Source of the DNA: Pseudobutyrivibrio sp.
GTDB taxonomy: Bacteria; Bacillota; Clostridia; Lachnospirales; Lachnospiraceae
DNA length: 33,686 nucleotides
Direction of reading: 5' to 3'
Assembly: GCA_021442555.1 (NCBI GenBank)
Contig: JABUSV010000148.1
Location: 1-33,686 of the forward strand
A program made the position numbers and the translations under genes. Shown here piece after piece: positions 11,007-29,765 of the stretch. Position 1 is the first letter of the stretch. Each line of letters begins with the position of its first letter. The notes beneath the pieces were generated by a model. That model had not been told where the DNA came from, searched no databases, and worked only from the letters and a program-made list of their open reading frames with translations.

Positions 11007-11234
11007 TTACTGATACTTTTCTACTAGACTAACAAGTGAAGCAATAGTGCTAAGGTTCTCTACCAAGAGGTCTTCGTCATCAACAGCGATGCCAAACGCC
11101 TCCTCCAGGCTAACAACAACCTCTACTGAAGACATGGAATCAAGTCCTATCTCCTTGAGATCAAAATCATCAGCATAGTCTGCTGCATCTACACTGAAAA
11201 CATCTGAAATAATCTGCTTAATCTGCTCTTTCAT
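11007..11234 (-). CDS. Acyl carrier protein (operon B; BtrI-like by context)
   Basis: 75 aa, DFDLKEIGLDSMSSVEVVVSLEEAFGIAVDDEDL with Ppant Ser in DSM. Confidence 0.88.
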   Translation of the reverse strand: MKEQIKQIISDVFSVDAADYADDFDLKEIGLDSMSSVEVVVSLEEAFGIAVDDEDLLVENLSTIASLVSLVEKYQ

Positions 11235-12520
11235 TATAAAATCTCCAAAATCTTATTATATTTTTCTTCAACCTGGGCTGCATCCTCTGCAACCAGATAT
11301 ATAAACACTCGACCTGCATCTCCTACACGTGCTCCTCTGATAGTCTCTGAGGTATATACGTGAGCGTCTTCATCAAGAGTTGATACAGCTTTGCTTACCT
11401 TGGCAAAACAATCCATATCTTCTGTCATGGCAAGCTTATGATAGAAGCTGAATAGTTGTTTACCTGGATGTCTGTCTGGTAAAAACGAAATATAAGTAGA
11501 CAGAGTATGTCTGCCGTTAATCTCTATAATAGGAATCAGGGTACCGTCCTTCAAAATCATGGCATCTATTCCAAGGATACCTACATATCCCATGTCATAG
11601 AGACCTTTACCTATGATCTCACCGCACTTAACGCACTCATCCTGAAGCTCCTTGGAAAAACGTGGCGGCATAACAGACCCGATATATACTACATCGTTGC
11701 ACATCTGCTCCTTGATGGAGAATACCTCTACAGTGCCATCAGCACCTACATATACCTGATAGTTAAGGTCGCAGAGCTTATCACACCACTGTTCCACCAG
11801 CCACTGTCTGTCTGTAGCATCCTTGAAAAATCTCTTGATGACCATCATGGTAGTCTTGAGCTTGCGCTCACTGTCCACAATCCAAAGACCTTTGCCGGAT
11901 GCGCCACAAGGCTCTTTGATAATAATACGACCATATTTTGCCAGATAATCAGATGCTACTGCTTCAAGCTCCTCCAAAGAAGAGACAATCTGTCCTGCTG
12001 ATACTGCCATGCCGTGTTCTATAGCAAATTTTCTTGAAAAAATCTTGTCGTTAATCGCCTTGTTGATATCATTAGGGCTGCCAAAAAGTGTAAGGCCAAG
12101 CTTTTTTGCAATACCTTCTTCAATAGTTGTTACACCATATGGTACAAATATCTTATCCTCTGTATCAGCTAACAAAGTCTTAATCTGTGCGATAAGATTA
12201 TCATCTTCTTCTACCAGATAGGAGATACCTCTAGTCTCGTCCTCTATACCAGGTGTAAGTATTGTAGGCAATGTAAAGCCCTGTGCCTCAAGTTCATCTA
12301 AGTAGGCCTGATCTGGCATGGTTCTTAGAATCATTATATCCTGTGGTCTGGTAATGAGAAGGTTCATCTCTTCCATGTGGTTTACAACCACGTCCCCTTT
12401 ACTATCCTTGATAGTAGCCTGTTCACCGTTCCAGTATGCCTCAAGTCCTATATTAAAAAGCCAGACTACTCTGGTAGAGTCAAGACCTCTTATATGTGAT
12501 AGTAGATTGAATGTCTTCAT
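11234..12520 (-). CDS. ATP-grasp ligase (BtrJ-like amino acid:ACP ligase by context)
   Basis: YGRIIIKEPCGASGKGLWIVD nucleotide-binding loop, QWLVEQWCDK, GILGIDAMILKDGTLIPIIEINGRHT metal-binding motif; stop overlaps the ACP start. Confidence 0.75.
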   Translation of the reverse strand: MKTFNLLSHIRGLDSTRVVWLFNIGLEAYWNGEQATIKDSKGDVVVNHMEEMNLLITRPQDIMILRTMPDQAYLDELEAQGFTLPTILTPGIEDETRGISYLVEEDDNLIAQIKTLLADTEDKIFVPYGVTTIEEGIAKKLGLTLFGSPNDINKAINDKIFSRKFAIEHGMAVSAGQIVSSLEELEAVASDYLAKYGRIIIKEPCGASGKGLWIVDSERKLKTTMMVIKRFFKDATDRQWLVEQWCDKLCDLNYQVYVGADGTVEVFSIKEQMCNDVVYIGSVMPPRFSKELQDECVKCGEIIGKGLYDMGYVGILGIDAMILKDGTLIPIIEINGRHTLSTYISFLPDRHPGKQLFSFYHKLAMTEDMDCFAKVSKAVSTLDEDAHVYTSETIRGARVGDAGRVFIYLVAEDAAQVEEKYNKILEIL

Positions 12521-13758
12521 AATGTATGCTGACCTCTAAGTAAAATATCTGCATCCTGGGATTCCCTAAGTACGATGACATCTTCGCCATCTATAAGGAC
12601 TTCAGCTGGAAGCTCATGTCCCAAGAAAAATACAGGGCTGTAGGTTAAACCATACGCACCAGAATTCTCGATTACTACATAATCGTCAGGGGCTATATTA
12701 GCATTAATCTCCACCTTTTGTCCAATAACGTCAAGAGGTGTACACAGTGGTCCTGTGATTGTAGTAACAGTCTTCTCCTCACCTTCTGGAAAAACATGAA
12801 GTGGAAAATTATTTCTTACAAAACGACCTAAAAATGCCGATGCTGAGTGGAAGGAAGAACCTCCATCACACACTACATACTTGGTTCCCTTGGACTCCTT
12901 GACATATAACACTCTGGTTATATACTCACCTGCAGTGGCAGTAAGGAAACGTCCACTCTCAAAAATAACCTCTGTATCTGCCAACACCTCTGCATAGGTT
13001 GCCTTAAGCTCCTTCATGGCAGCTGCTAAGGCATCTGTATCCAGTGGTGACTCGTTAGGGAAGTATTTTACTCCAAAGCCACCACCTACATTGAGGTATT
13101 TTAATCTAAAATCAAACTTCTCTGCCATGGCAGTGGCAAGTTTGATGCCATATTCTGTGTTAGATACTGCATCCTCATACATAAGAATCTCTGTACCCAT
13201 GTACATCTGAACGCCAATAAGCGTAACATGATTAAGCGCTAGAATCTCAGGAATTGCTGTGTCGATATCGGCCTCTTCTATTCCAAACTGTGAGCTGACA
13301 CCTGCCATCTTAATCTTGGCGTTGGAATAGCTTATAGCCGGGTTGATACGTACAGCTATAGGATAATTAACACCACGTTCTGATGCAATGGCATCTATAA
13401 GCTGTGCTTCTGCAACAGTCTCCACATTGATGACCTTGACTCCAATCTCCATGGCAAGACTTATCTCAGCTGCTGTCTTACCTGGGCTGGTAAACACAAT
13501 ATCCTGCCCTTCAAAGCCAGCCTTTACCGCTGTCTTAAGCTCTCCTGCTGATGCACACTCGATACCAAGTCCCTTGTTCCTAAAAATCTGGCATACTCCA
13601 ACTAATGGATTGGCCTTGATAGAATAGAATAATCTGGCGCCTGGTAGAATAGTGTTAAGCAAAATATCTGCATTTTTTTCAAATATCTGACGATTATATA
13701 CGTACAGCGGAGTGCCATACTTTTCTGCCAGTGTTGTAATTGTATTGTAATCTGTCAT
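12517..13758 (-). CDS. Fold type III PLP-dependent decarboxylase (BtrK-like; DAPDC/ODC superfamily)
   Basis: ARLFYSIKANPL (PLP Lys), GLGIECASAGEL, YLNVGGGFGVKYFP, FESGRFLTATAGEYITRVLYVKESKG, GPLCTPLDVIGQ; N-terminal alanine-racemase-like barrel. Confidence 0.85.
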   Translation of the reverse strand: MTDYNTITTLAEKYGTPLYVYNRQIFEKNADILLNTILPGARLFYSIKANPLVGVCQIFRNKGLGIECASAGELKTAVKAGFEGQDIVFTSPGKTAAEISLAMEIGVKVINVETVAEAQLIDAIASERGVNYPIAVRINPAISYSNAKIKMAGVSSQFGIEEADIDTAIPEILALNHVTLIGVQMYMGTEILMYEDAVSNTEYGIKLATAMAEKFDFRLKYLNVGGGFGVKYFPNESPLDTDALAAAMKELKATYAEVLADTEVIFESGRFLTATAGEYITRVLYVKESKGTKYVVCDGGSSFHSASAFLGRFVRNNFPLHVFPEGEEKTVTTITGPLCTPLDVIGQKVEINANIAPDDYVVIENSGAYGLTYSPVFFLGHELPAEVLIDGEDVIVLRESQDADILLRGQHTL

Positions 13759-13763
13759 AGCTC

Positions 13764-14552
13764 TTACTTTTCTATATGATTGAAGTCATAGAGATGTGCA
13801 CTGTCGTTGTTAATAATATCCATACACACTATCTCATAGACCTGCTTGGTATCCACAACCGTAAATCTTATATTGTTGATGAAATAATCCTTGGCAACAC
13901 CCAATTCTCTAAGTATAGGATTAAGCAGTCCCGACTTGTCCTTTGGATCCGCCTCGTAGTCTCGTACATACAGGCTGTAAGTACGGGTAGACTCATTGCC
14001 CTGTTCATCGATATACTGCCCTGTAAAGGCCTTGTCCAATCTGTAAGGCACACCTAATACCTGCTCTGCGTGATGCATTATGGTCATGCGAAGCATGGTA
14101 TCTTCAATGTCAATAACCAATACCTTGACATTCATCTTGAGAAAATCTTCAAAAATAGACCCCTCTCCAAAGGCATTCTTGTAATCCTTGGATGCAAAAA
14201 ACTGCTGATATTTGCCCCATACTGCAAAGGAATGTGTAGGACTGCTGGTTCGAATAAAGTCATTACGAACTCTGGCCGCATTGCCAAGTACTCCTACAGT
14301 GCCTGGAGTGTTTTTTATATCAAAAGTCTCTCCACTGCAGAATCCATAACAAAAAGTCGGAAATAAAAGTGTTCCCTCTGGACCTACCTTTTTTTGCATG
14401 GCTGTGATAAATGCATCTGGATCAAACTTCTCGTGAGCTCTTAGGGCTCCTCTTGTTAATCTGGTTATATCCGAAATTATATGATAGGTCCCTCCCTCTT
14501 CAAGAAAATCCATGAAGGAAGGAATATCGTTAAATCTTACTTGTTCTTCCAT
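13764..14552 (-). CDS. Aminoglycoside N3-acetyltransferase (AAC(3)/Antibiotic_NAT) fold acyltransferase
   Basis: VGPEGTLLFPTFCYGF, NTPGTVGVLGNAARVRNDFIRTSSPTHSFAVWGKYQQ, IMHHAEQVLGVPYR. Confidence 0.78.
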   Translation of the reverse strand: MEEQVRFNDIPSFMDFLEEGGTYHIISDITRLTRGALRAHEKFDPDAFITAMQKKVGPEGTLLFPTFCYGFCSGETFDIKNTPGTVGVLGNAARVRNDFIRTSSPTHSFAVWGKYQQFFASKDYKNAFGEGSIFEDFLKMNVKVLVIDIEDTMLRMTIMHHAEQVLGVPYRLDKAFTGQYIDEQGNESTRTYSLYVRDYEADPKDKSGLLNPILRELGVAKDYFINNIRFTVVDTKQVYEIVCMDIINNDSAHLYDFNHIEK

Positions 14553-15991
14553 TTGACGTAAATAATAGCATAACTGCCCAGCACAGTAAACACAGACAGA
14601 ATCAGTGCCACCATAAAGCTAGGTATTATAAAATAAAATAGTATTCCTGGAATAACCACCATAAGAAGTGGCATCCAGCTCTTTTTTAACAGTTTTACAA
14701 CCGAATATCCAAATCTCTTGTTGAGCTTGAATATCAATAGCAGCGAATACAAAGCATAGCTTATTCCTGTACCCACCGCAACCATCTCTATAGTTCTATC
14801 CACCAACAGTACCAGGCCTGTTGAGAATGCTATGTTGAAAATGCACAGATAGATGGAGTTCATTATCAGTGAAATATTAAGCTTGAGCACACTGAAAATG
14901 TTGCCCAGTATCATGGTTGTTGAATAGATTGCTACACCAATGATAAGAATCTGGGATGCCGCATTACCATCTGTATATTTTGGCATGAATATCTGCACAA
15001 AAAGTGGCAATAGGTAAAACACACCTACACAGGCTCCACCAGTGAGAGTAGACACGATTCCTGTGTATTTTGCCGCCTCATCCAAAAGCTGCATCTCATC
15101 TCCTGTAGCCCCATACAGTCGACTAATCTTGTTATAAAATACACCCGATATAGTCTGAGGTATAAGCACCATGGTAGTAAAGCCCATAATAGGTACTGAA
15201 TACACACCCAGGTCGTATCTTGTCATGAATATCAGAATGACAAACTTGTCTACTGACGATACCAGTGTCCAAATCAAGGACTCAAACAGTAGTGGCAGAC
15301 CGCCTAATATCATACCCTTGATATAGGAAAAGTCAAGCTGAAAGTGCACATGCCTTATTGCATATTTTCCAAAGAAAATAATACCCAGCACTGCTGATGC
15401 AAAAGGCATCACATATAATCCGTAGTAACCCCACAGATTAATAGCCACAACACCCAATGCCATGGCTATACAGGTCCTTAAAAAGCCTGCTCCTGCAGAG
15501 TAGTTGTATTTGCCCTGTATTCTAGCTGTGCTGACACTGCAGTCATCTAAACACTTGACCAGAAGAATAACTGGCACTACTAGATACCCAAAGGCATAAT
15601 AATCTGACATATTGCCATGATAGATGATAGCAACAGCTACATCCACTACAAGCGTCACTATAAGGAACATACTGATAAGATATGAGAAAACACTGTTGCG
15701 CATCTTATCTGCATCCTCATAGTCCTTTCGTCCCAAGGCCTGTGGATAATCCCTGTTATATGAATTAAGAACACCAAGCTGTGCATATGTCAGATATGTC
15801 TGAAGCAACAGACAGGTAGAATAGATACCCATGTTATCTGGATTGACCAGCGATCTGGCATATACGTTAAATATAAAGGACATGGCCGAGCACACAACTG
15901 TGCTGGCTGTGACCAGGATAAAATCATATTTAGTTAGTAATGACCTTATTTTTGAAAACAAAATCAAAAACCCTTTTAGAAATCTTCCCAC
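14537..15991 (-). CDS. Oligosaccharide flippase (Wzx-like, MATE/polysaccharide transport superfamily)
   Basis: 484 aa polytopic; FNVYARSLVNPDNMGIYSTCLLLQTYLTYAQLGVLN, SVDKFVILIFMTRYDLGVYSVPIMGFTTMVLIPQTISGVFYNKIS. Confidence 0.85.
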   Translation of the reverse strand: MGRFLKGFLILFSKIRSLLTKYDFILVTASTVVCSAMSFIFNVYARSLVNPDNMGIYSTCLLLQTYLTYAQLGVLNSYNRDYPQALGRKDYEDADKMRNSVFSYLISMFLIVTLVVDVAVAIIYHGNMSDYYAFGYLVVPVILLVKCLDDCSVSTARIQGKYNYSAGAGFLRTCIAMALGVVAINLWGYYGLYVMPFASAVLGIIFFGKYAIRHVHFQLDFSYIKGMILGGLPLLFESLIWTLVSSVDKFVILIFMTRYDLGVYSVPIMGFTTMVLIPQTISGVFYNKISRLYGATGDEMQLLDEAAKYTGIVSTLTGGACVGVFYLLPLFVQIFMPKYTDGNAASQILIIGVAIYSTTMILGNIFSVLKLNISLIMNSIYLCIFNIAFSTGLVLLVDRTIEMVAVGTGISYALYSLLLIFKLNKRFGYSVVKLLKKSWMPLLMVVIPGILFYFIIPSFMVALILSVFTVLGSYAIIYVKWKNK

Positions 15992-17052
15992 TGAATAAGC
16001 TCGTCTGCGTCGATATCACGCTTGAGCGTCTTACCAATGAGGATCTCATAATATTTAGGTGGAATACCTGTACCAGGACGTTTGTAGTCTAGGTCATCCT
16101 CTGTGATTACATGTCCTGCTTTGAGGTCCTTTGAAGTGATGATACTTCTAAGAAATGCATCTCTTCTCTCCTGCGACTCTACTACCACCTTGCGGTATGA
16201 GCCCATCATCTTGTAGCCCTGCTCTGCTGCATCGCAGATAATCTTCATCTCCTCTGGATTGGCAGAAATCTTGTGGTCCCAGCCTACCATTTCCTTGTCC
16301 ATGGTGAAGTGCTTTTCGATGATACATACATTTTTTGCAAGAGACATAATAGGTGCTACTGTGCCAAATGTATGATCAGAATATCCTGTTGGATAGCCAA
16401 AGTTCATACGAAGCATATCGATGTTGTTGAGGTTAACCTGAGTATCCTCTGGTGGGTAGATTGATACGCAGTGAAGTACTACTATCTCCTTGCATCCGCC
16501 CTGTTCTAACGCTTCGATTGCAAGCACTATGTCATCCAAGCCACGAAGACCTGTAGAGATAACTACTGGCTTGCCCTTGGATGCGATGTATTTCAAAAAT
16601 GGGATGTTATCAATATCCATAGAGGCAACCTTGATAAAAGGCACATCAAGGTCCACAAGCATATCTACCTCATCATGAGTGAATGGTGTAGATGAAAAAT
16701 CTATCTCAAGTTCATCACAATATGCCTTGAGTTCCTCGTGCTGAGCACGGTCAAGAGCATATTTTTCGATAATAGTCTCTAAAGTATAGTCTGTACGATT
16801 ACGATAATCATCATTAAGGAAATAATTGTCCTCGAATACCTTCTTTGAAAAAATAGAATGGGTGCCAAAGCTCTGAAGCTTAACGCAGTCAGCGCCGCAT
16901 TCCTTTGCTGTTTTGATCATGGTTTTGGCCAAATCCATATCACCGTTGTGATTGGCGCCAAGCTCTGCGATAACATATGGCTTGCATCCACCTGCTACCA
17001 TCTGCTGATAGTTAAATCTCATTATTGTTCCTCCATTTTGATGCTGTCCCAC
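15976..17052 (-). CDS. N-acetylneuraminate/legionaminate synthase family (NeuB-like) with C-terminal SAF domain
   Basis: YVIAELGANHNGDMDLAKTMIKTAKECGADCVKLQSF, STPFTHDEVDML, GYSDHTFGTVAPIM, IIEKHFTMDKEMVGWDHKISANPEEM, SIITSKDLKAGHVITEDDLDYKRPGTGIPP. Likely start 17022 (MRFNYQQM). Confidence 0.88.
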   Translation of the reverse strand: MGQHQNGGTIMRFNYQQMVAGGCKPYVIAELGANHNGDMDLAKTMIKTAKECGADCVKLQSFGTHSIFSKKVFEDNYFLNDDYRNRTDYTLETIIEKYALDRAQHEELKAYCDELEIDFSSTPFTHDEVDMLVDLDVPFIKVASMDIDNIPFLKYIASKGKPVVISTGLRGLDDIVLAIEALEQGGCKEIVVLHCVSIYPPEDTQVNLNNIDMLRMNFGYPTGYSDHTFGTVAPIMSLAKNVCIIEKHFTMDKEMVGWDHKISANPEEMKIICDAAEQGYKMMGSYRKVVVESQERRDAFLRSIITSKDLKAGHVITEDDLDYKRPGTGIPPKYYEILIGKTLKRDIDADELIQWEDF

Positions 17053-18025: not shown

Positions 18026-19306
18026 CTATAACAGCGCCTCTATAGTATGGGTGTCAAACACTGGACACCCACAGTTTTCTGCCACTTCTTTGCGCTCCCC
18101 GTAGGAATCGTCGATAAATACAGGCTTTTCCCCAGTCACATATTTGTACTTTGGAATCCCTCTATTTATATGAATTATTTCATCAAAAATCTGTGTAAGA
18201 CGATATTTATTCAATAACGGCTGAAGCTCTCCGTCGTGATGTGTAAGCAGCACCAGTCTCTTGCCTTCGTTGAAGCACTTATATAAAAAGGTAATCATCT
18301 CAAGATTTACCTGATTATCTACCACCATGGTGTCGTCATAATCTACGTATACATCAGTGTAGTCTAAGTCTACTCTAAATGAGTTACCCAAGGCTCTGTC
18401 AAGCTCGATGTCATAGTCGTTGATAATGACACTATCTACATCTATGCCATTGAATATATTTGCGGTAAGCAGCGGCAAATTCACTCCTGTTGCTCTGGTG
18501 ATTCCGCTGGTTCCTGCTATTCTGCTGGCCACCTCCAACAGTTTCAGGCTGCCATCTGCAGCCTCTTTTAGCTGGAAAAACCAGCCTCCAACCTGTGGAA
18601 GAGCCTCGTTGATACGCTTGGCAATCTCAAAAAACTCAGGTCTGTCTACAAAAACAGCATTAACAGATATTCCACCCTTGATACGTCTTCTGCCTCTTGC
18701 TCTGGCGTAAACCAGTTCACCCCTCCTGTTAGTCAAACAGTCGATAGTATACTCCTCACCTGGCATATATTCAAGAACCATGCTTTTGCCATCTGTAAAA
18801 AATGAATCCAAAAGCTCTGTCTCATCATTTATCTTCATGGCACCAGATGAGCCCTGGCCTACATCTGGCTTTTTAAATACAGGATATTCTGTAATCTCTG
18901 CCTTGAAATTGTATACCTTGGGAGTTGCCACAACATCTCCAAGCTTCTCATAGGTCTTGCGCTTTGAGCGAGTAATCTCCGTAGCTGAGTAATCAGAAGC
19001 TATAACTACAGGGGTAAGACAGTCTCTGTACTTACTAAACACAGTAATAACTCCATCCATGACAGGATAGATAAAATCAAAGCCATAGTCTTTTATTTTT
19101 TCATCAAATTCTCTTATCTCATCAGCATTAGATCTGTCTGTGATAAAAGGCAGATCATCTATGTGATTTTCAAATACAAATCGTCCATGGTCATAGCTGC
19201 AAGATCCCCCCCACAGTTCATAATGAGTGGAGTATCGCAGGCTTCGATAGACCTCTAGTCCAATCTCTGTACCACAAGGATACACTAGTATTTTTTTCTT
19301 ACTCAT
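18026..19306 (-). CDS. ATP-grasp ligase fused to a C-terminal HAD-superfamily domain
   Basis: ATP-grasp: YPVFKKPDVGQGSSGAMKI, MVLEYMPGEEYTIDCL, LKLLEVASRIAGTSG. HAD: VYVDYDDTMVV (DxDxT), RLVLLTHH, KYKYV, PVFIDDSYGE. Confidence 0.8.
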   Translation of the reverse strand: MSKKKILVYPCGTEIGLEVYRSLRYSTHYELWGGSCSYDHGRFVFENHIDDLPFITDRSNADEIREFDEKIKDYGFDFIYPVMDGVITVFSKYRDCLTPVVIASDYSATEITRSKRKTYEKLGDVVATPKVYNFKAEITEYPVFKKPDVGQGSSGAMKINDETELLDSFFTDGKSMVLEYMPGEEYTIDCLTNRRGELVYARARGRRRIKGGISVNAVFVDRPEFFEIAKRINEALPQVGGWFFQLKEAADGSLKLLEVASRIAGTSGITRATGVNLPLLTANIFNGIDVDSVIINDYDIELDRALGNSFRVDLDYTDVYVDYDDTMVVDNQVNLEMITFLYKCFNEGKRLVLLTHHDGELQPLLNKYRLTQIFDEIIHINRGIPKYKYVTGEKPVFIDDSYGERKEVAENCGCPVFDTHTIEALL

Positions 19307-20384
19307 TCTTTAATCGAGCCTCCATCTTCTGCAGCTCGTCCATCTGTCCCATGTCCATCCATGCGCTCTCGTTGATTGGATATACGCCGACTCTGCCGCC
19401 CTTATCCTTGATTCGCTGGATTACATCAGGAAAACCTATAAACTCGCCTTCGGCTATCTCATCAATAACCTCTGGCTCAACAATGTAGCTTCCTGTGTTG
19501 GTGAAAAACGAAAACTCAGGTTTTTCTTTCATGGCTTCTATCTCACCATGCTCACCTATCTCTACAACACCGTAGGCTACTTGAAAATTCCTAAGAGAGG
19601 CTACCATGGTAACCTTATTCTTGGATTCTGCGTGATGCTTGTATATTTTTTCGAAATCCTCTTCTATAAGGATGTCGCAATTAGTCAGAATAAAAGGTGT
19701 CTTTATCTTTCCAGACAGTAATTTGAGGCCTCCTCCTGTCCCAAGTGGCACGTCCTCATCAGCATATTTGATGGAATATTCCTTGGAAGTCTCATTGAAA
19801 TATGCCTTAATCATATTTTTTTTGTGGTTAACTATGAGATAAAAATCATCAACGCCGCTCTCATGGAACTTATCCATGATAATCTCAGCTATTGGCTGCT
19901 CACCTACAGGAATCAGTGGCTTGGGCAATATCTTGGTGTAAGGATACAGTCTTGTGCCCTTGCCCCCTGCCATCATAACTACTGGGATATTGAGCTGTCC
20001 CTTTTCTCTGTTAATCTCACTCCAGAAACGAATCTCCACAACCTGATTGCTGTCATTTACTACAGGAATACCCTGAATATTGCGCTTGCGCATTACACGG
20101 GCAGCATCCTCAGCCTCTGCTTCAGTAAGACTCATAGGATTGTAGTTGGCTACGGTCTTTACAGGTTCTGTAAGAGCTCCCGCTGATAATATCCATCTAC
20201 GAATATCACCCTCGGATACTGCAGCCTTAAGACAATTGTTTTCATCAACCACAAAAAGCACATGAACGCCATTGGCATCCATCTGCTGCAGTGCCTGAAG
20301 CTGTGTACTGTCTTCAGTAATCAGATATTTAGATATTTGTGCTTGTCCTCTTAATAAGTCCATTCTCTTCCAATTTCTCCACAA
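19299..20384 (-). CDS. CBS-domain nucleotidyltransferase (PtmE-like sugar-1-P nucleotidyltransferase)
   Basis: Two N-terminal CBS-type segments (VLFVVDENNCLKAAVSEGDIRRWIL; RKRNIQGIPVVND) then VVMMAGGKGTRLYPYTKILPKPLIPVGEQPIAEIIM. Likely start 20363 (MDLLRGQ) with upstream GGAAGAG. Confidence 0.87.
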   Translation of the reverse strand: MWRNWKRMDLLRGQAQISKYLITEDSTQLQALQQMDANGVHVLFVVDENNCLKAAVSEGDIRRWILSAGALTEPVKTVANYNPMSLTEAEAEDAARVMRKRNIQGIPVVNDSNQVVEIRFWSEINREKGQLNIPVVMMAGGKGTRLYPYTKILPKPLIPVGEQPIAEIIMDKFHESGVDDFYLIVNHKKNMIKAYFNETSKEYSIKYADEDVPLGTGGGLKLLSGKIKTPFILTNCDILIEEDFEKIYKHHAESKNKVTMVASLRNFQVAYGVVEIGEHGEIEAMKEKPEFSFFTNTGSYIVEPEVIDEIAEGEFIGFPDVIQRIKDKGGRVGVYPINESAWMDMGQMDELQKMEARLKNE

Positions 20385-21615
20385 TAGGAATCAATTCTTT
20401 TATTGGAACGTCAATTATATTGCTGATGTCAATGAGGTCATTGGTGCCATCAGCATAGGCGATAAGATTGATCATAGACTGAATCTCATCATATACACCC
20501 TTTTTGCTAACGGTAGGATATAAGCCCCTCTTGCCAAGTCTTGGCTCACAGATAGTAGTCACCTGGTAATACCAGTTGTATTCCATGGCATCCACTATTT
20601 GCTTGTATACATCCAACGCACCCTCTAAGCCCTTCTGTGATATGCAGTCAAGATTATCGGCAGAGGTGTGATATTCCGGATAATCATGGAACTTTGATCT
20701 GGCTATTGAAGCCAATGGAATATCCACTCCTGGAGCACAGTACTGACGCTCATCAGAGCCTCTTTTCATAAAATCACAGCTCTTAAATCCTGGATAATGA
20801 AACTTAAGTACGTTTACAGCCAGCTTGTCAGCCAGCGTGTTTCCATATCTGCTGGCAAGGTATGTATAGGTCCTGTCATCACCGACACATGCTACGTTGT
20901 AGCCCGCCTTCACATGAGCTTTCATGTGCTGCAGGTTTTCGCTAAGATACGCAATCGCTCCAATAGTCTCAGGTGCAAAAGTGATACGATATGTATAGTG
21001 TCTGTGCTTTAGTCCACGAATATACTCTATTAACGCAGCAAGCATTACAGGCCCGGAAAGCTGATCATTGCACATGCTTGGATGACAGATATATGTGGAA
21101 AAGAATATCTCATCCTCTGTTTCACCTGGTATAATCACATCACCGTAGGTAAGACTTCCATCCTCGATAAACTTGCTCTTGATTACTGCATGATATCTTC
21201 CCTGTGGAAGCTTATTGAGTTCGTTATAGCTCATGCAAAAACCACTGCGTGGATTGTAGTAAGAAGTAACATATGGGATTACATCTGGCTGCTCCTCCAG
21301 CGTAAAGACAATCTTTTTAAGCTCGTCCAGTTCCATCCACTCATCCATGGGATAAGAATATCCTACAACAGACAGGTTGGTTTTCTTAAAATCGATAACC
21401 CTGACACCCGCTTCATTTTCTACATAAGCATCCTCGATATTCCATTCTGCTGGAATAGTCCAGTCAAATACGTCTGTACCAGATGGCACCTCATGTATAT
21501 TAAGCTCTGGAATCTCTCTTTGTAATATTCTTAAAGTCTGGCGATTACCCTCTCCAGTAAGAGAACGGCATATAGGAAATAGCTCCTTAGCTAATTCATA
21601 CATTGATTTAGTCAT
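20329..21615 (-). CDS. DUF4910-like Zn-aminopeptidase-fold protein (M28-like) with C-terminal winged-helix segment
   Basis: ELFPICRSLTGEGNRQTL; metal-ligand-like motifs TYICHPSMCNDQLSG, FAPETIGAIAYL, SDERQYCAPGVDIPLASI, DYPEYHTSADN. Confidence 0.75.
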   Translation of the reverse strand: MTKSMYELAKELFPICRSLTGEGNRQTLRILQREIPELNIHEVPSGTDVFDWTIPAEWNIEDAYVENEAGVRVIDFKKTNLSVVGYSYPMDEWMELDELKKIVFTLEEQPDVIPYVTSYYNPRSGFCMSYNELNKLPQGRYHAVIKSKFIEDGSLTYGDVIIPGETEDEIFFSTYICHPSMCNDQLSGPVMLAALIEYIRGLKHRHYTYRITFAPETIGAIAYLSENLQHMKAHVKAGYNVACVGDDRTYTYLASRYGNTLADKLAVNVLKFHYPGFKSCDFMKRGSDERQYCAPGVDIPLASIARSKFHDYPEYHTSADNLDCISQKGLEGALDVYKQIVDAMEYNWYYQVTTICEPRLGKRGLYPTVSKKGVYDEIQSMINLIAYADGTNDLIDISNIIDVPIKELIPIVEKLEENGLIKRTSTNI

Positions 21616-22765
21616 TGATTATAACCTCTATTACTCTCTCACAGTCTTCTGCTGTAAGGTTGGTTGAGCATGGTACATTAACTACTCTGCGCCAGTACCA
21701 AGGTGCTTTTTCCAATTCAAATGTACGGCTGCCCTCGTATGGAAGCTGGTCTGATATAAGTCCCCAGATAGGTCGTGACTGGATATCGTTGTCTGACAGC
21801 TTTTTGATGAGGTCATCTCTGCTGTGGTCCCCCTCTTCAAAAAGCACAGAATAAAACCAATAGTTGGTTCTGATTCCCTCCCTGAATGGAATAACAGACA
21901 TACCATCTACTCCATCAAGAGCATCCTTGTACATATTATAATTGCGGGTCTTAATCGCAATAAAATCCTCTAACTGTTCCAACTGAGCCAGACCCATAGC
22001 AGCCTGAAGGTTGGTCATACGATAGTTGTATCCTATATCATCATGGATAAAATTAACCTGATCAGCCTTGGCCTGAGTAGTCAAATGCTTCGCCTTGGCT
22101 AAAAGAGCCTCGTCGTTGGATACAATCATGCCGCCACCACCAGTGGTGATAATCTTGTTGCCGTTGAAGGAATATGCTCCAATATCACCCATTGTACCGG
22201 CATATTTGCCCTTATATTCACCCTCAGTATAATATGTGCCAAGAGCCTCTGTAGCATCCTCTACAACCTTGATGTTATACTGGCGAGCGATAGGAAGAAT
22301 GGAAACCATATCTGCCATATTGCCAAATACGTGAACTACAACCATAGCCTTCACATGACGGCCAGTGGCTCTGTCAATAAGCTTGCCATCCACGTAGTCG
22401 CACTCTGTCTCGCAATATTTTTTCAGCTTAACAGGGTCCATGCAAAGACTGTCATCACAGTCCATAAATACAGGTTCAGCGCCGATGTATTTTACAGGAT
22501 TGACTGCTGCAATAAAAGTAAGAGTAGGCACAATCACAGCATCCTCTCTGGTAACTCCCATAAGCATGAGAGATATGTGAAGTGCTGAAGTACCGTTCTG
22601 ACAGCTGACTGCTGCAGGAACATGCACATACTCTGCTATCTTTTTTTCAAAATCATTAACATATGGTCCGGCAGTAGATACCCACTCGGTCTCAACTGCA
22701 TCTGTTACATATTTTAATTCATTACCCTTTAGGTTAGGTACTGAAAGAGGAATAAATCTAGACAT
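21608..22765 (-). CDS. legC: LegC-family DegT/DnrJ/EryC1/StrS aminotransferase
   Basis: FIPLSVPNLKGNELKYVTDAVETEWVSTAGPYVNDFE, VVEDATEALGTYY, IGAYSFNGNKIITTGGGGMIVSND (PLP Lys). Confidence 0.87.
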   Translation of the reverse strand: MSRFIPLSVPNLKGNELKYVTDAVETEWVSTAGPYVNDFEKKIAEYVHVPAAVSCQNGTSALHISLMLMGVTREDAVIVPTLTFIAAVNPVKYIGAEPVFMDCDDSLCMDPVKLKKYCETECDYVDGKLIDRATGRHVKAMVVVHVFGNMADMVSILPIARQYNIKVVEDATEALGTYYTEGEYKGKYAGTMGDIGAYSFNGNKIITTGGGGMIVSNDEALLAKAKHLTTQAKADQVNFIHDDIGYNYRMTNLQAAMGLAQLEQLEDFIAIKTRNYNMYKDALDGVDGMSVIPFREGIRTNYWFYSVLFEEGDHSRDDLIKKLSDNDIQSRPIWGLISDQLPYEGSRTFELEKAPWYWRRVVNVPCSTNLTAEDCERVIEVIIND

Positions 22766-23759
22766 TGTAAATATCCACCTTATATTTGTCCATGTTGTTA
22801 CGTAAAAATTCTATAGTCTCTGCCAAGCCCTGTTCAAAGGTATATTGCATCTTCCAGTCTGTAAGCTCTAGAATCTTGGCGTTGGAACCAAGAAGTCTGT
22901 TAACCTCACTCTTTTCAGGTCGAAGTCTTTGCTCCTCACAGATAATCTTGGCTGCAGGATTGATCTGTCTTATAAGCTCCTCAGCCAGCTGTCCAATAGA
23001 TATCTCCTGCTGAGTTGCAATATTAATCTCCTGTCCAATAGTCTTATCTGACTCATACATAGCTATAAAGCCTGCTGCTGTATCCTTAACATAATTGAAA
23101 TCTCTGGTAGGTGTAAGGCTACCCAGCTTAATCTCAGTCTTTCCAGCCAGAAGTTGTGTAATAATCGTAGGTATAACTGCACGTGCCGACTGACGTGGTC
23201 CATAGGTGTTAAATGGGCGCACGATAGTAACAGGCAACTCAAAGGAACGATAAAAGCTCTCTGCCAGTCTGTCTGCCCCAATCTTGGTAGCAGAATATGG
23301 TGACTGTCCCTGATATGGGTGCTTCTCATCGATAGGCACATACTGAGCTGTTCCGTATACCTCTGAGGTAGAGGTAACAAGAACACGGCTGGTTCCCAAG
23401 TCTCTTGCCGCCTGAAGCACGTTAAGAGTACCCTTGATATTGGTATCTACATAAGCATCGGGGCTGTGATATGAAAAAGGAATGGCAATAAGTGCAGCCA
23501 GATGAAACACTGCATCGCATCCCTTCATGGCTTCTCTGACTCCGTGAGGATCGCGTATATCACCTGCGAATACCTCTACGTGATCCATTACTGACTTAGG
23601 AAGAGTATCTAACCATCCCCAGTTGTTAAAGCTGTTGTAATATACAAATGCTCTTACCTCATAGCCGCGCTTAACCAACTCTTCTGTAAGGTGTGAGCCT
23701 ATAAATCCATCTGAACCTGTAACTAATACTTTTGCCATATTATTACTCCATAATCTCAC
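22758..23759 (-). CDS. legB: LegB-family NAD-dependent UDP-GlcNAc 4,6-dehydratase
   Basis: KVLVTGSDGFIGSHLTEELVKRGYEVRAFVYYNSFNNWGWLDTLP, STSEVYGTAQYVPIDEKHPYQGQSPYSATKIGADRLAESF. Likely start 23738 (MAKVLVTG). Confidence 0.88.
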   Translation of the reverse strand: MRLWSNNMAKVLVTGSDGFIGSHLTEELVKRGYEVRAFVYYNSFNNWGWLDTLPKSVMDHVEVFAGDIRDPHGVREAMKGCDAVFHLAALIAIPFSYHSPDAYVDTNIKGTLNVLQAARDLGTSRVLVTSTSEVYGTAQYVPIDEKHPYQGQSPYSATKIGADRLAESFYRSFELPVTIVRPFNTYGPRQSARAVIPTIITQLLAGKTEIKLGSLTPTRDFNYVKDTAAGFIAMYESDKTIGQEINIATQQEISIGQLAEELIRQINPAAKIICEEQRLRPEKSEVNRLLGSNAKILELTDWKMQYTFEQGLAETIEFLRNNMDKYKVDIYNV

Positions 23760-24567: not shown

Positions 24568-26151
24568 CTACGCTCCATAAGTTATTAAATATCTTAACAC
24601 GTCGCACATCACCAATACATACACCAGATTCTGGGCATAGAGCATAGTAAGAGCGAGCTTGTTTTCCTTTTTATCTGTACCTAAAAATACCATAGATAAT
24701 ACAAATATAGGAACATAATATCTGGCAGACACCTGAAGTCTGTCAGTGCCATCAGTTGGTGTAAATCTAACCAGACACCCTGCAATGATGGCTCCTAACA
24801 CTAGAAAGGCAGTAAGCAAAAACCACAGGAACTGTTTTTTCCCAATCCATCTGCCTCTGCCTAGTACCAATCCAAGTATCACAATAATAATCAGTGCCAC
24901 AATAAGGCCTGTAGCCACATATACTATGAGAATATGGCTTCCCAACTGCTCTCCAAATATAGCCCGGACATCTTCCCATGCGTAATATCTAAAGGTATCC
25001 CAGAGAAGCTTTAACACTTCAAGAGGATGTTTGATCATATAGCCTATGGTAAAGGCTGGTCTGGCCGCCTGCTCGATGGAAGAGCCTTCATCCTTGGTGA
25101 TAATCTCCATGGAGATTCTTGTCCACTTGAAGAAGTCAAAATACACCACCGCTGCCGCATATATTCCATATATAACAGTTGTGACAGCTGTCTTTTTGTT
25201 TTTTTCTGAAAAAAGTCCCTTCCACTTATTCATTGGAATCATAAATACCATCGGAAGGAAAAGTACATACACTATCTTGTTAGGGATAAGTACAGCATAA
25301 ATTGTTGTCAGGATAAACAAGTCCCTGAACCTAAATGTTGTATCCTCTAAGGAATAGTGCATACACAGCACTGCAAAAAGCAGTGACATAAGAATACTCA
25401 GATTGTCGTAAGAATAACTGTTACACAGCTCCATAATAAGAGGAAGCATGGTTAGTCCTACAATCTGTGCTTTGCCCACTGGGGCAAACTTCACACACAG
25501 ATATCCTAATATGATAAATGCCAGTGTATTCATAAATCGTCCGGCATATAACAATCCAACACAACCGAGATTAAGCAGTCTTGCCAGTGCAATACCTACA
25601 CTGGAAAACGGATATCTGTACCATAATACTGTAATCTCAGGATTAGTGGTCAAGCCTTCAAAGCCTGGTGTTATTCCAAACCAGCTGCCATCTGCCAACA
25701 ACTGATATTCATCAGGAAAATTTTCATGATACTGAGGATATTGAGTATCCTCTATTCTAAACCACCACTTGCCTGCAAAGCCCCAGTCGTTGGTGAACAT
25801 CACAACATTGCTGCCATGATATGCTGCAAGATAATGAGTGTTTTCGTCAGGGCCAGAAAGAGGTGGCATCACAATCTGCATAACAATGCCCCAGCATATT
25901 GCAAGAACCACAAAAAGCTGCTCATATCTGAATTCTTTTTTCCTAAGAAGCAGCCATAGAAAATATGCTGTAGCCACAAACATGCATACCAGTGGAATAG
26001 CCATAAACAGGTTGTATCTTACAGATAATGCACCGTCAAATACAGTAGCTGTAAAAAACAAGCCTGCTCTTGCAAGCACCACTACTGCAGCAAAAACAGC
26101 TGTTATCTTTAATGCTATTTGAACCTTTTTATTAGTAAATATCTCAGTCAC
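24568..26151 (-). CDS. DUF2142-like polytopic membrane protein (GT-C-like), copy 1
   Basis: 527 aa; MPPLSGPDENTHYLAAYHGSNV motif; multiple TM helices; collinear with 28164-29765 product. Confidence 0.75.
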   Translation of the reverse strand: MTEIFTNKKVQIALKITAVFAAVVVLARAGLFFTATVFDGALSVRYNLFMAIPLVCMFVATAYFLWLLLRKKEFRYEQLFVVLAICWGIVMQIVMPPLSGPDENTHYLAAYHGSNVVMFTNDWGFAGKWWFRIEDTQYPQYHENFPDEYQLLADGSWFGITPGFEGLTTNPEITVLWYRYPFSSVGIALARLLNLGCVGLLYAGRFMNTLAFIILGYLCVKFAPVGKAQIVGLTMLPLIMELCNSYSYDNLSILMSLLFAVLCMHYSLEDTTFRFRDLFILTTIYAVLIPNKIVYVLFLPMVFMIPMNKWKGLFSEKNKKTAVTTVIYGIYAAAVVYFDFFKWTRISMEIITKDEGSSIEQAARPAFTIGYMIKHPLEVLKLLWDTFRYYAWEDVRAIFGEQLGSHILIVYVATGLIVALIIIVILGLVLGRGRWIGKKQFLWFLLTAFLVLGAIIAGCLVRFTPTDGTDRLQVSARYYVPIFVLSMVFLGTDKKENKLALTMLYAQNLVYVLVMCDVLRYLITYGA

Positions 26152-27161: not shown

Positions 27162-28164
27162 AGAAAATCTCCTGCAGCCAGCACTTTAGAGAATATTTGT
27201 TATAAACATTCTCAGGCAAGTCCTGATAATTTCTGTGTACAAATTCTTCCAGTCCCTCAAAGTTGTAATCCTTAATAAGCAGATAATTATGCTCATTATA
27301 GAAATCATAATCAGCTATATCATAATTGGTGGTTGCCAATTTTTCACAAGCACCAATACATTCAATAGTTCTCATGGTAAGACCAGACTGAGCACTGTGA
27401 CTACAGTCAAACATTACCTTGGAATGTGCCATTTTTTCCTGGATGATGTGTGCCGGAATGCTCTTAAAGGTCAGCACTGACTCATCCAAAGGCTTATATT
27501 CCTCGTAGTTTTTCTGAAGATTCCATACAAACCTTCTGATATAAAACTTTGCATACAAAGATATTCCATGAGCCTCACAATAATCCTTGAGTCTGGTGTA
27601 ATACACGGCCCTTTCCCTGGACAGAGTGGCAATATAGATAATATCTACGTCCTTGTCAGGATTTTTGTTGATGCCTGCATAGCCTGGAATGTAAAACAGA
27701 GGACGAAATCTCCAGCCTTCTGACTTATAAGCCTCATAATCAGCCTTGTCAAAGGTAGACACCAGATCAAAATATCTGGCTCTGTCATGAGCGCCTCTCA
27801 TTCTCTTGCAGCTGTCCCAGTAATGCAGTATATACCTGGCTTGTGGTATCTGCTCCTTGAGATATGTAAGCACTTTATCAGAAAATAAATCTATTCTAAG
27901 GCAGAAAACAAAATCATAGTCTTTGCTTTTCAACTCATCTATTTTTTTTATAAAATATTTATCTCTGGCGTTGGATTGAATATTAGATGGCATGCGGTTG
28001 ATTATCAAAAACTTTAAGGTAGTGGCATCTACATTTTCCTGAATAAATGTAACTGTAGCCCCTGCCCGCTGCAATTCCTCAATAATCTCAACCTCATAGT
28101 TAAAATATACTGGTCCTATAAAAAGTATCTTTTTCCCAGAGACGATATTGTTTAATTCTTTCAT
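27151..28164 (-). CDS. Glycosyltransferase-like protein (CgeB/Eps11J-like)
   Basis: KILFIGPVYFNYEVEIIEELQRAGATVTFI, YDFVFCLRIDLFSDKVLTYLK, SGLTMRTIECIGACEKLATTNYDIADYDFYNEHNYLLI. Confidence 0.65.
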   Translation of the reverse strand: MKELNNIVSGKKILFIGPVYFNYEVEIIEELQRAGATVTFIQENVDATTLKFLIINRMPSNIQSNARDKYFIKKIDELKSKDYDFVFCLRIDLFSDKVLTYLKEQIPQARYILHYWDSCKRMRGAHDRARYFDLVSTFDKADYEAYKSEGWRFRPLFYIPGYAGINKNPDKDVDIIYIATLSRERAVYYTRLKDYCEAHGISLYAKFYIRRFVWNLQKNYEEYKPLDESVLTFKSIPAHIIQEKMAHSKVMFDCSHSAQSGLTMRTIECIGACEKLATTNYDIADYDFYNEHNYLLIKDYNFEGLEEFVHRNYQDLPENVYNKYSLKCWLQEIFFEE

Positions 28165-29765
28165 TATTTTGTCAAATTAAGTAAAAATACTAACACACTG
28201 ATAATATATGGAATCAACAGCAGATTCTGAAGATATAAAAGCTTTAGCATCCACTGGCTTTCCTTGGCACGGGTACCAGTAACCATAATACCAGCCATAA
28301 ATATTGGTATGTAGTATCTGGATGCAATCTGGACTCTTTCACCATCTATTGGTGTAAATCTGATAAGACATCCATAGACTATGATAACCATTGTGGCAAA
28401 GGTTGTAACAAGCCAAATGATATATCTTCTCTTATCCAGGCTCTCCCCGCGGTTAAATACCAATGTTGCAATAAAAACTATTGTCATCAGTACAAATATC
28501 CAAAGCGGAACCAACAGAGTAATACTGTGGTGCATTGGATCTCGTCCCAACAGCGCCTGAAAATCCAACCACCAATACTCCTTGAAGGTATGACCTATCA
28601 ATCTAATGATCTGTCCTGGATGGTTGGTAATGTATTCAAAATTATATGCCGGACGTCCTTCGTACTGCTCTATGCTATTGCCGCTAAGTGTAAATACCTT
28701 CCACACATAGCCCTGAACCAGATCAAAGAGGTATCTCTTGTAGACAACGATAAAGCCTGCTACCATTGCCACAAGAATTCCAATATTAACCGGATTTTTG
28801 CGGGCAATCATTTTACCCCATTTTTTAAACGGAATACAAAACATCATCAGCATATAGGCCATATAGCAACCCTTATTAGGTGCTATAAGAACAAATACTA
28901 TACCAAGTATCAAAAAGTCTATAGCCTTAAAATCTATGTCAGGCTCGCTATAATATAGGCACAGAGCCACTGACAGAATACAAAGTGATATGCTCATTAC
29001 ATCATACGAATATGAACTGCAAAGCTCGATAACATGAGGAATCATGGCTCCCATACATACCTGAGCCTTGCCTACAGGTGTCACCTTGATGGCAAAATAT
29101 CCACACAATACGTAAAATAATGTGTTGGTGATACGACCAAAATACATCAGTGCCACCAGACCTGCTCCAAGCTTTCTCGCCAGCATAATGGCAAGACCTG
29201 ATGGTATATATCTAAACCAGGCTCCGGCTATCATGTTAACTTCCATAAGCGCAGCTTCATCATCAGATACTCCAAACATATCTGCATCTGCTGTCAGCCA
29301 GTAGCTGTCTGGAAAATTGACATCATACAGCCAAAACTGAGTGTCGCATTCTCTCATTAAAAACGAAGTATTATCCTCCACATTGTCGCTTGAGGTTCCA
29401 AGAAATACGTTGGAGGTGTTATATGCAGAAAAAAAGTGGTTAGCCTCGTCTGGTCCTGACAGAGCTGGCATGGCCAGCTGGAATACCATTCCCCAGCACA
29501 GGGCGATAACCAGATACAGGTGTTCATATTTGAACTCTTTTTTCAGGGTCATGTGATATATAAAATATCCAGTAGGAACCAACACTAATACAAAAAGTAA
29601 TACAAAATACAGATTGTATCGCATTGATTTGGTGCCATCAAAGGCTTCCAATATTAAAGTAGTCAATAGAGCAAGACATCCGGCCACACCAAGTACTATT
29701 GCAATTATAGTAGTGATATTATTGGCTCTTTGGTTGTCCTCACTCCAGTGAAAAAATCTATTCAT
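28164..29765 (-). CDS. DUF2142-like polytopic membrane protein (GT-C-like), copy 2
   Basis: 533 aa; MPALSGPDEANHFFSAYNTSNVFLG; clear paralogue of 24568-26151 product. Confidence 0.75.
   Translation of the reverse strand: MNRFFHWSEDNQRANNITTIIAIVLGVAGCLALLTTLILEAFDGTKSMRYNLYFVLLFVLVLVPTGYFIYHMTLKKEFKYEHLYLVIALCWGMVFQLAMPALSGPDEANHFFSAYNTSNVFLGTSSDNVEDNTSFLMRECDTQFWLYDVNFPDSYWLTADADMFGVSDDEAALMEVNMIAGAWFRYIPSGLAIMLARKLGAGLVALMYFGRITNTLFYVLCGYFAIKVTPVGKAQVCMGAMIPHVIELCSSYSYDVMSISLCILSVALCLYYSEPDIDFKAIDFLILGIVFVLIAPNKGCYMAYMLMMFCIPFKKWGKMIARKNPVNIGILVAMVAGFIVVYKRYLFDLVQGYVWKVFTLSGNSIEQYEGRPAYNFEYITNHPGQIIRLIGHTFKEYWWLDFQALLGRDPMHHSITLLVPLWIFVLMTIVFIATLVFNRGESLDKRRYIIWLVTTFATMVIIVYGCLIRFTPIDGERVQIASRYYIPIFMAGIMVTGTRAKESQWMLKLLYLQNLLLIPYIISVLVFLLNLTK

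Follow-up and report, generated by a model that had tools for sequence, protein, structure and literature searches.

In Pseudobutyrivibrio sp. (assembly GCA_021442555.1, contig JABUSV010000148.1), four adjoining minus-strand genes at positions 11007-14552 encode an AAC(3)-fold N-acyltransferase, a fold type III pyridoxal phosphate (PLP) decarboxylase, an ATP-grasp amino-acid ligase, and an acyl carrier protein (ACP); the window, as used here, is the whole stretch of 33,686 nucleotides that was analysed. We consider it probable that these four genes form an ACP-based N-acylation module of a surface-sugar operon, combining ligase loading, decarboxylation on the ACP, and AAC(3)-fold transfer to a sugar amine. 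The best reading is that a natural-product loader was recruited to a glycan N-acylation module, yielding an omega-aminoacyl amino sugar. The single parts are already known; what appears new is that a BtrK-type loader and an AAC3 sugar-acylation module stand together in a LegB/LegC operon. This pairing was found nowhere else among about 1,560 genomes sampled of 98,500, and we know of no described system that has it.

The predicted pathway begins with the ATP-grasp ligase, which would attach the side-chain carboxyl of Glu or Asp to the ACP. The BtrK-type decarboxylase would then strip the free alpha-carboxyl on the ACP to give 4-aminobutyryl-ACP or beta-alanyl-ACP. Finally, the AAC(3)-fold enzyme, replacing LegH, would pass the omega-aminoacyl group on to an amine of the sugar, most likely the LegB/LegC 4-amine. 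The glycan, flipped and exported, would thereby gain an amide group with a positive charge. We infer the loading and decarboxylation steps from family membership and conserved gene linkage, and the transfer step from the ACP association of the AAC3 clade and from parallel gene sets in the same genus.

The transferase (13764..14552, 262 aa; PF02522 Antibiotic_NAT, 95 bits), proposed to carry the aminoacyl group from the ACP to the sugar amine, is followed in transcription order by the BtrK/CtaF-type decarboxylase (12517..13758, 413 aa; PF02784, 143 bits, plus PF00278), the ligase proposed to load the ACP (11234..12520, 428 aa; PF02222 plus a PF18604 pre-ATP-grasp domain), and the dedicated ACP (11007..11234, 75 aa; PF00550, 51 bits). 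The ACP retains its phosphopantetheine serine, within GLDSMSS, and its best NCBIfam match is the cispentacin ACP AmcB, under the cut-off. The original prediction for this DNA had described four contiguous co-directional genes with tight junctions, and open reading frames, family profiles, and a spacing of -4 to +5 bp bear this out; in transcription order, the junctions are -16 (Wzx/AAC3), +5 (AAC3/decarboxylase), -4 (decarboxylase/ATP-grasp), -1 (ATP-grasp/ACP), and +1 bp (ACP/DUF6077).

Judged by its sequence, the decarboxylase is of the ACP-tethered BtrK type and not LysA. Its best match among all solved structures is BtrK (2j66/7ru7, 291 bits), with LysA proteins at 162 bits or less. In alignments, its GPLCTPLD loop has the CTPxD pattern, as do BtrK, CtaF, and the exosortase-A type, whereas LysA proteins carry CESGD, CETGD, or CENxD (CExxD); CTPxD is common to nearly all of the ACP-linked decarboxylase relatives aligned, and can be read as diagnostic for the tethered type. 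A maximum-likelihood tree places the enzyme in a 97/96 clade with BtrK, CtaF, the exosortase-A type, and relatives from Paenibacillus, Streptomyces, and Clostridia, with LysA apart. One protein first labelled LysA (L059) falls inside the BtrK/CtaF clade; since its locus holds an ACP and an AMP-ligase, it is ACP-linked too. Bit score, loop, and clade thus uphold the BtrK-type assignment of the original prediction, which had named grouping with lysA as the outcome that would speak against it; that grouping, and with it a LysA or SpeA identity, was rejected by scores, loop motif, and tree. Such enzymes are known to act on carrier-bound substrates: BtrK decarboxylates an iso-glutamyl-ACP thioester, VinO acts likewise on a beta-methyl-isoaspartyl carrier, and on-carrier decarboxylation has also been proposed for BolN (PMC7756342).

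The best NCBIfam match of the decarboxylase is the exosortase-A-associated family TIGR03099 (327 bits, below the cut-off of 478). Polysaccharide loci of this type in Aureimonas and Sinorhizobium, like the window, hold a member of the same broad decarboxylase clade inside a glycan cluster, with an AMP-ligase in both and an ACP in Aureimonas. Unlike in the window, the AMP-ligase replaces the ATP-grasp ligase, and no AAC3-like gene is annotated in the stretches read; no functional description of the TIGR03099 glycan loci was found.

The ligase, decarboxylase, and ACP are a real unit rather than a chance association, because this neighborhood recurs in other loci. Homologues of the ligase were collected from a Paenibacillus pattern scan, a phylum sample, a class sample, the family, and plasmids, and 30 loci were read; the pattern scan, run genome-wide with N-terminal ATP-grasp patterns, returned Paenibacillus only, and the plasmid search gave three Streptomyces records. 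An ACP lies near the ligase homologue in 29/30 loci, and a decarboxylase is adjacent on the same strand in 21/30 (20/29 distinct loci, as L008 and L017 are one contig). Five more distant homologues (L009, L011, L041, L111, and L112) directly adjoin an ACP without a decarboxylase, possibly representing amino-acid loading without the decarboxylation step. The AlphaFold2 model of the window ligase has a pLDDT of 86 and its best Foldseek matches are the ATP-grasp peptide ligases 8ynd, BesA, and PGM1; together with the ACP neighbors, these matches point to an ATP-grasp fold of the ACP-linked peptide-ligase type, in keeping with the original prediction. A match to the ligase was found only in the window genome among 145 near relatives, and in four of 397 family genomes, two of them strong.

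Two characterized pathways offer the closest precedents for the trio. In butirosin biosynthesis, as in the window, an ACP, an ATP-grasp ligase, and a BtrK-type decarboxylase (BtrI/BtrJ/BtrK) are encoded together, and the acyl group ends on an aminosugar-type amine, as proposed here; the window ligase is likened to BtrJ by enzyme class and not by BtrJ sequence. However, butirosin also involves BtrO/BtrV hydroxylation (BtrO being a monooxygenase), the cyclotransferase BtrG (deprotection), and the transferase BtrH, for which the window genes searched gave no Pfam match, and the window differs further in its AAC(3)-fold transferase and in its context, an exported glycan rather than an antibiotic. 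In Ruminiclostridium cellulolyticum, the closthioamide genes ctaD, ctaE, and ctaF form, like those of the window, a contiguous set of ATP-grasp ligase, carrier, and BtrK-type decarboxylase; the predicted roles are loading of the carrier CtaE for CtaD and formation of beta-alanine from Asp for CtaF (PMC6772006). This locus was recovered in our search (L051), matching ctaA-ctaK in families and gene order: chorismate lyase, aminotransferase, AANH-type, ATP-grasp, carrier, decarboxylase, C39-like, carrier, AMP-ligase, transglutaminase, and reductase. Unlike the window, it makes a poly-beta-alanine thioamide, is without sugar genes, and has a decarboxylase 34% identical to that of the window. Other trio loci hold genes for BtrH-type proteins, thioesterases, and AMP-ligases and look like uncharacterised natural-product clusters. 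Among them, five Clostridia loci (L040 and L043 to L046) combine the trio with a BtrH-type transferase, a thioesterase, NTP_transf_5, and an AMP-ligase in a natural-product-like setting, and the closthioamide-bearing genome has a second trio in a cluster of this kind.

None of the 30 ATP-grasp loci contains AAC3, NeuB, LegB, LegC, or DUF4910 genes in the stretches read (mostly about 10 kb on each side). The AlphaFold2 model of the AAC3-like protein (pLDDT 85.5) has AAC(3)-Xa (E 1e-17), AAC-IIIb, and FrbF as its best Foldseek matches. The HHAE motif is kept, with H160 and E163 invariant, and the protein does not pass the NCBIfam AAC_3 resistance-enzyme profile (39.9 bits, cut-off 270). Homologues are present in 19 other genomes among 195 relatives, and in the tree the window protein falls in an 11-row clade (97/93). 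In 8 of the 10 other loci of this clade, a same-strand ACP and a DUF4910 gene are nearby; the DUF4910 gene adjoins AAC3 or lies within 3 kb of it in 8/10 homologous loci, and a role for DUF4910 in sugar acyl transfer has been suggested (PMC4000134). The probable acyl source in these eight loci is FkbH in five, all from the same genus as the window, an AMP-ligase with a cyclase and an HMGL-like protein in two, and an AMP-ligase with a radical SAM protein in one. Since the ACP persists while the loaders differ, the transferase looks constant and the loader variable across the clade. Same-strand ACPs, DUF4910 genes, and such loaders accompany none of nine distant AAC3 homologues. That the AAC3-like protein belongs to an acyl module in a sugar operon, as first proposed, is thus strengthened by a sugar-operon clade that travels with an ACP.

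A similar arrangement has been reported for Clostridium acetobutylicum, where the operon CA_C2186-2199 includes NeuB, an ATP-grasp protein, a nucleotidyltransferase, DUF4910, an aminosugar N-acetyltransferase, an ACP, and a HAD/acetyltransferase protein (PMC4000134). The window likewise brings together NeuB, ATP-grasp, nucleotidyltransferase, DUF4910, N-acyl/acetyltransferase, and ACP genes; unlike the window, the C. acetobutylicum loader appears to be HAD/FkbH-type, and a BtrK-type decarboxylase is not listed (PMC4000134).

Five loci from the same genus (L095, L096, L129, L130, and L131) join an AAC3-family gene to an ACP-type decarboxylase by another route. Each contains a glycosyltransferase, the AAC3-family gene, YfhO, the decarboxylase (with a CTTAD loop in L095 and L096), an ACP, and an AMP-ligase, and they apparently represent an undescribed envelope-glycan cassette paralleling that of the window. 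Like the window, they associate AAC3, decarboxylase, ACP, and loader in an envelope-glycan-like locus. They differ in that the loader is an AMP-ligase, AAC3 lies 3-5 kb from the decarboxylase instead of adjacent to it, and identity to the window proteins is 26-28% for the decarboxylase and about 22% for AAC3. These sets offer the best support for the proposed transfer step.

Minus-strand genes run from 33684 to 7462 spaced by a few bases, with a single 209-bp gap, and the cassette therefore appears to share one operon with LegB, LegC, DUF4910, a CBS/nucleotidyltransferase, a second ATP-grasp, a glycosyltransferase, and NeuB. Upstream of the transferase, on the same strand, are a Wzx-type flippase (14537..15991; PF13440/PF01943), which overlaps the AAC3 start by 16 bp, and a NeuB-type nonulosonate synthase with a SAF domain (15976..17052; PF03102, 261 bits; TIGR03569, 335 bits, under the cut-off of 400). 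Further upstream on the minus strand are a CBS plus nucleotidyltransferase protein for sugar-nucleotide formation (19299..20384; PF00483, PF00571), which we take to be comparable to PtmE/LegX, and a DUF4910/DUF2172/HTH_47 protein (20329..21615; PF16254, 337 bits), the recurring partner of AAC3-like genes in relatives. Beyond them, in the same direction, lie the LegC aminotransferase proposed to make the sugar amine (21608..22765; TIGR04181, 487 bits, over the cut-off of 420) and the LegB 4,6-dehydratase (22758..23759; TIGR04180, 521 bits, over the cut-off of 475). The operon also encodes two DUF2142 membrane proteins (24568-26151 and 28164-29765), with genes for an acyltransferase_3 protein and a WaaS/CpsH-type glycosyltransferase between them. 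At 1028-2416, the window holds a second ACP set (FabG-like short-chain dehydrogenase/reductase, MaoC dehydratase, and ACP) adjoining FnlA/WbjC-like sugar genes; its ACP resembles the FkbH-linked ACPs from same-genus AAC3 operons (71-77 bits).

The description of a Leg-type operon therefore holds in part: besides NeuB, the window encodes LegB and LegC that score above the curated thresholds, but it lacks LegH, LegG, and LegF. The window genes searched yielded no LegH-type acetyltransferase of the hexapeptide or GNAT kind, and Epimerase_2 and CTP_transf_3 proteins occur on other contigs of the genome without Leg assignment. A separate nonulosonate cluster (L115, contig C127) has a LegC/PseC-like aminotransferase, a CMP-sugar transferase, and a NeuB-type synthase truncated where the contig ends. 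The expected co-occurrence of all four cassette genes likewise stands only in part: the trio is widespread and an analogous AMP-ligase set occurs in the five same-genus loci described above, but the AAC3-like gene joins the ATP-grasp trio in the window only.

Several observations weigh against the proposed module. In the genomes sampled, all four genes were never found together at a homologous locus. The window shows only part of the sugar pathway, LegG and LegF being absent from it, and pieces may be missing because the window genome is 84% complete; the acceptor, given that LegH is absent from the window too, is the weakest point of the model. The matched AAC(3)-fold enzymes of known structure are of the acetyl-CoA type, and the closest stand-alone AAC3 relatives (L097 and L099) are without an ACP, so that ACP use by the window AAC3 is not forced. 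These two proteins are 35-36% identical to the window protein, and stand alone beside type II secretion genes and an ATP synthase operon. The same two points favor an alternative in which the AAC3-like enzyme, as a LegH substitute, uses acetyl-CoA to acetylate the LegC amine, and the trio feeds another acyltransferase or a separate small molecule, as might be expected from the closest trio relatives, which sit in natural-product-like clusters with BtrH-type transferases. However, AAC3 and the trio follow one another directly, their genes overlapping or only a few bases apart; the ACP stays beside or near AAC3 in most clade relatives as loaders vary; and the window genes searched show no BtrH-type transferase, nonribosomal peptide synthetase, or other obvious enzyme that would transfer from an ACP. 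We regard acetylation from acetyl-CoA as unlikely.

A second alternative assigns the ligase something other than side-chain Glu or Asp, so that the product would not be 4-aminobutyrate (GABA) or beta-alanine but, e.g., an amine that is longer or methylated, or a peptide assembled on the carrier. The family does take several acyl groups, with Asp as the substrate of CtaF and BolN, iso-Glu of BtrK, and beta-methyl-iso-Asp of VinO (PMC7756342, PMC6772006), and the window enzyme is roughly as far from BtrK (37% identity) as from CtaF (34%); for that reason, choosing between Glu and Asp from the decarboxylase sequence was abandoned. Against this alternative, which seems doubtful, the members described in these papers all work on dicarboxylic amino acids or methyl derivatives of these. 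That such sugars can carry glutamate-derived acyl groups is known from the Clostridium botulinum flagellar sugar Leg5GluNMe7Ac, a legionaminic-type sugar N-acylated via the side-chain carboxyl of a glutamate derivative (as cited in PMC5207245). Unlike in the window proposal, the glutamate as cited there retains its alpha-carboxyl, and a decarboxylase would therefore be unneeded. GABA- or beta-alanine-acylated bacterial sugars were not found in the papers searched, which is weak evidence of absence.

Finally, that the decarboxylase is an ordinary free amino-acid enzyme of LysA or polyamine type, in the operon by chance, is very improbable: the TIGR01048 (lysA) profile does match it (271.5 bits, though below the cut-off of 297.9) and no convincing LysA was found elsewhere in the 84% complete genome, but its clade and CTPxD loop are of the BtrK type, same-genus LysA-type proteins (L053 and L054) form a separate clade at 22% identity, and linkage to an ATP-grasp ligase and ACP is conserved across many taxa. 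The sole other match in the genome (L119, contig C84) lies beside probable polyamine genes and was rejected as the genome's LysA, being not LysA by sequence.

Beyond the window, the evidence is evenly poised on a broader proposal, that one clade of acyl-ACP-using AAC(3)-fold transferases serves exchangeable ACP-loading cassettes (FkbH, AMP-ligase, or ATP-grasp with decarboxylase) in the N-acylation of surface glycans of Clostridia, with the window as the first case of ATP-grasp-loaded, on-carrier decarboxylation leading to a cationic omega-aminoacyl sugar. If the proposed module is correct, a loader of antibiotic biosynthesis would act on an exported sugar, and AAC(3)-fold proteins in sugar operons would gain a biochemical role in which the donor is acyl-ACP instead of acetyl-CoA. 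It would also predict a specific cationic cell-surface group detectable by mass spectrometry, and the matched AAC3/ACP/loader combinations would be a natural set for studying how donor choice is encoded.

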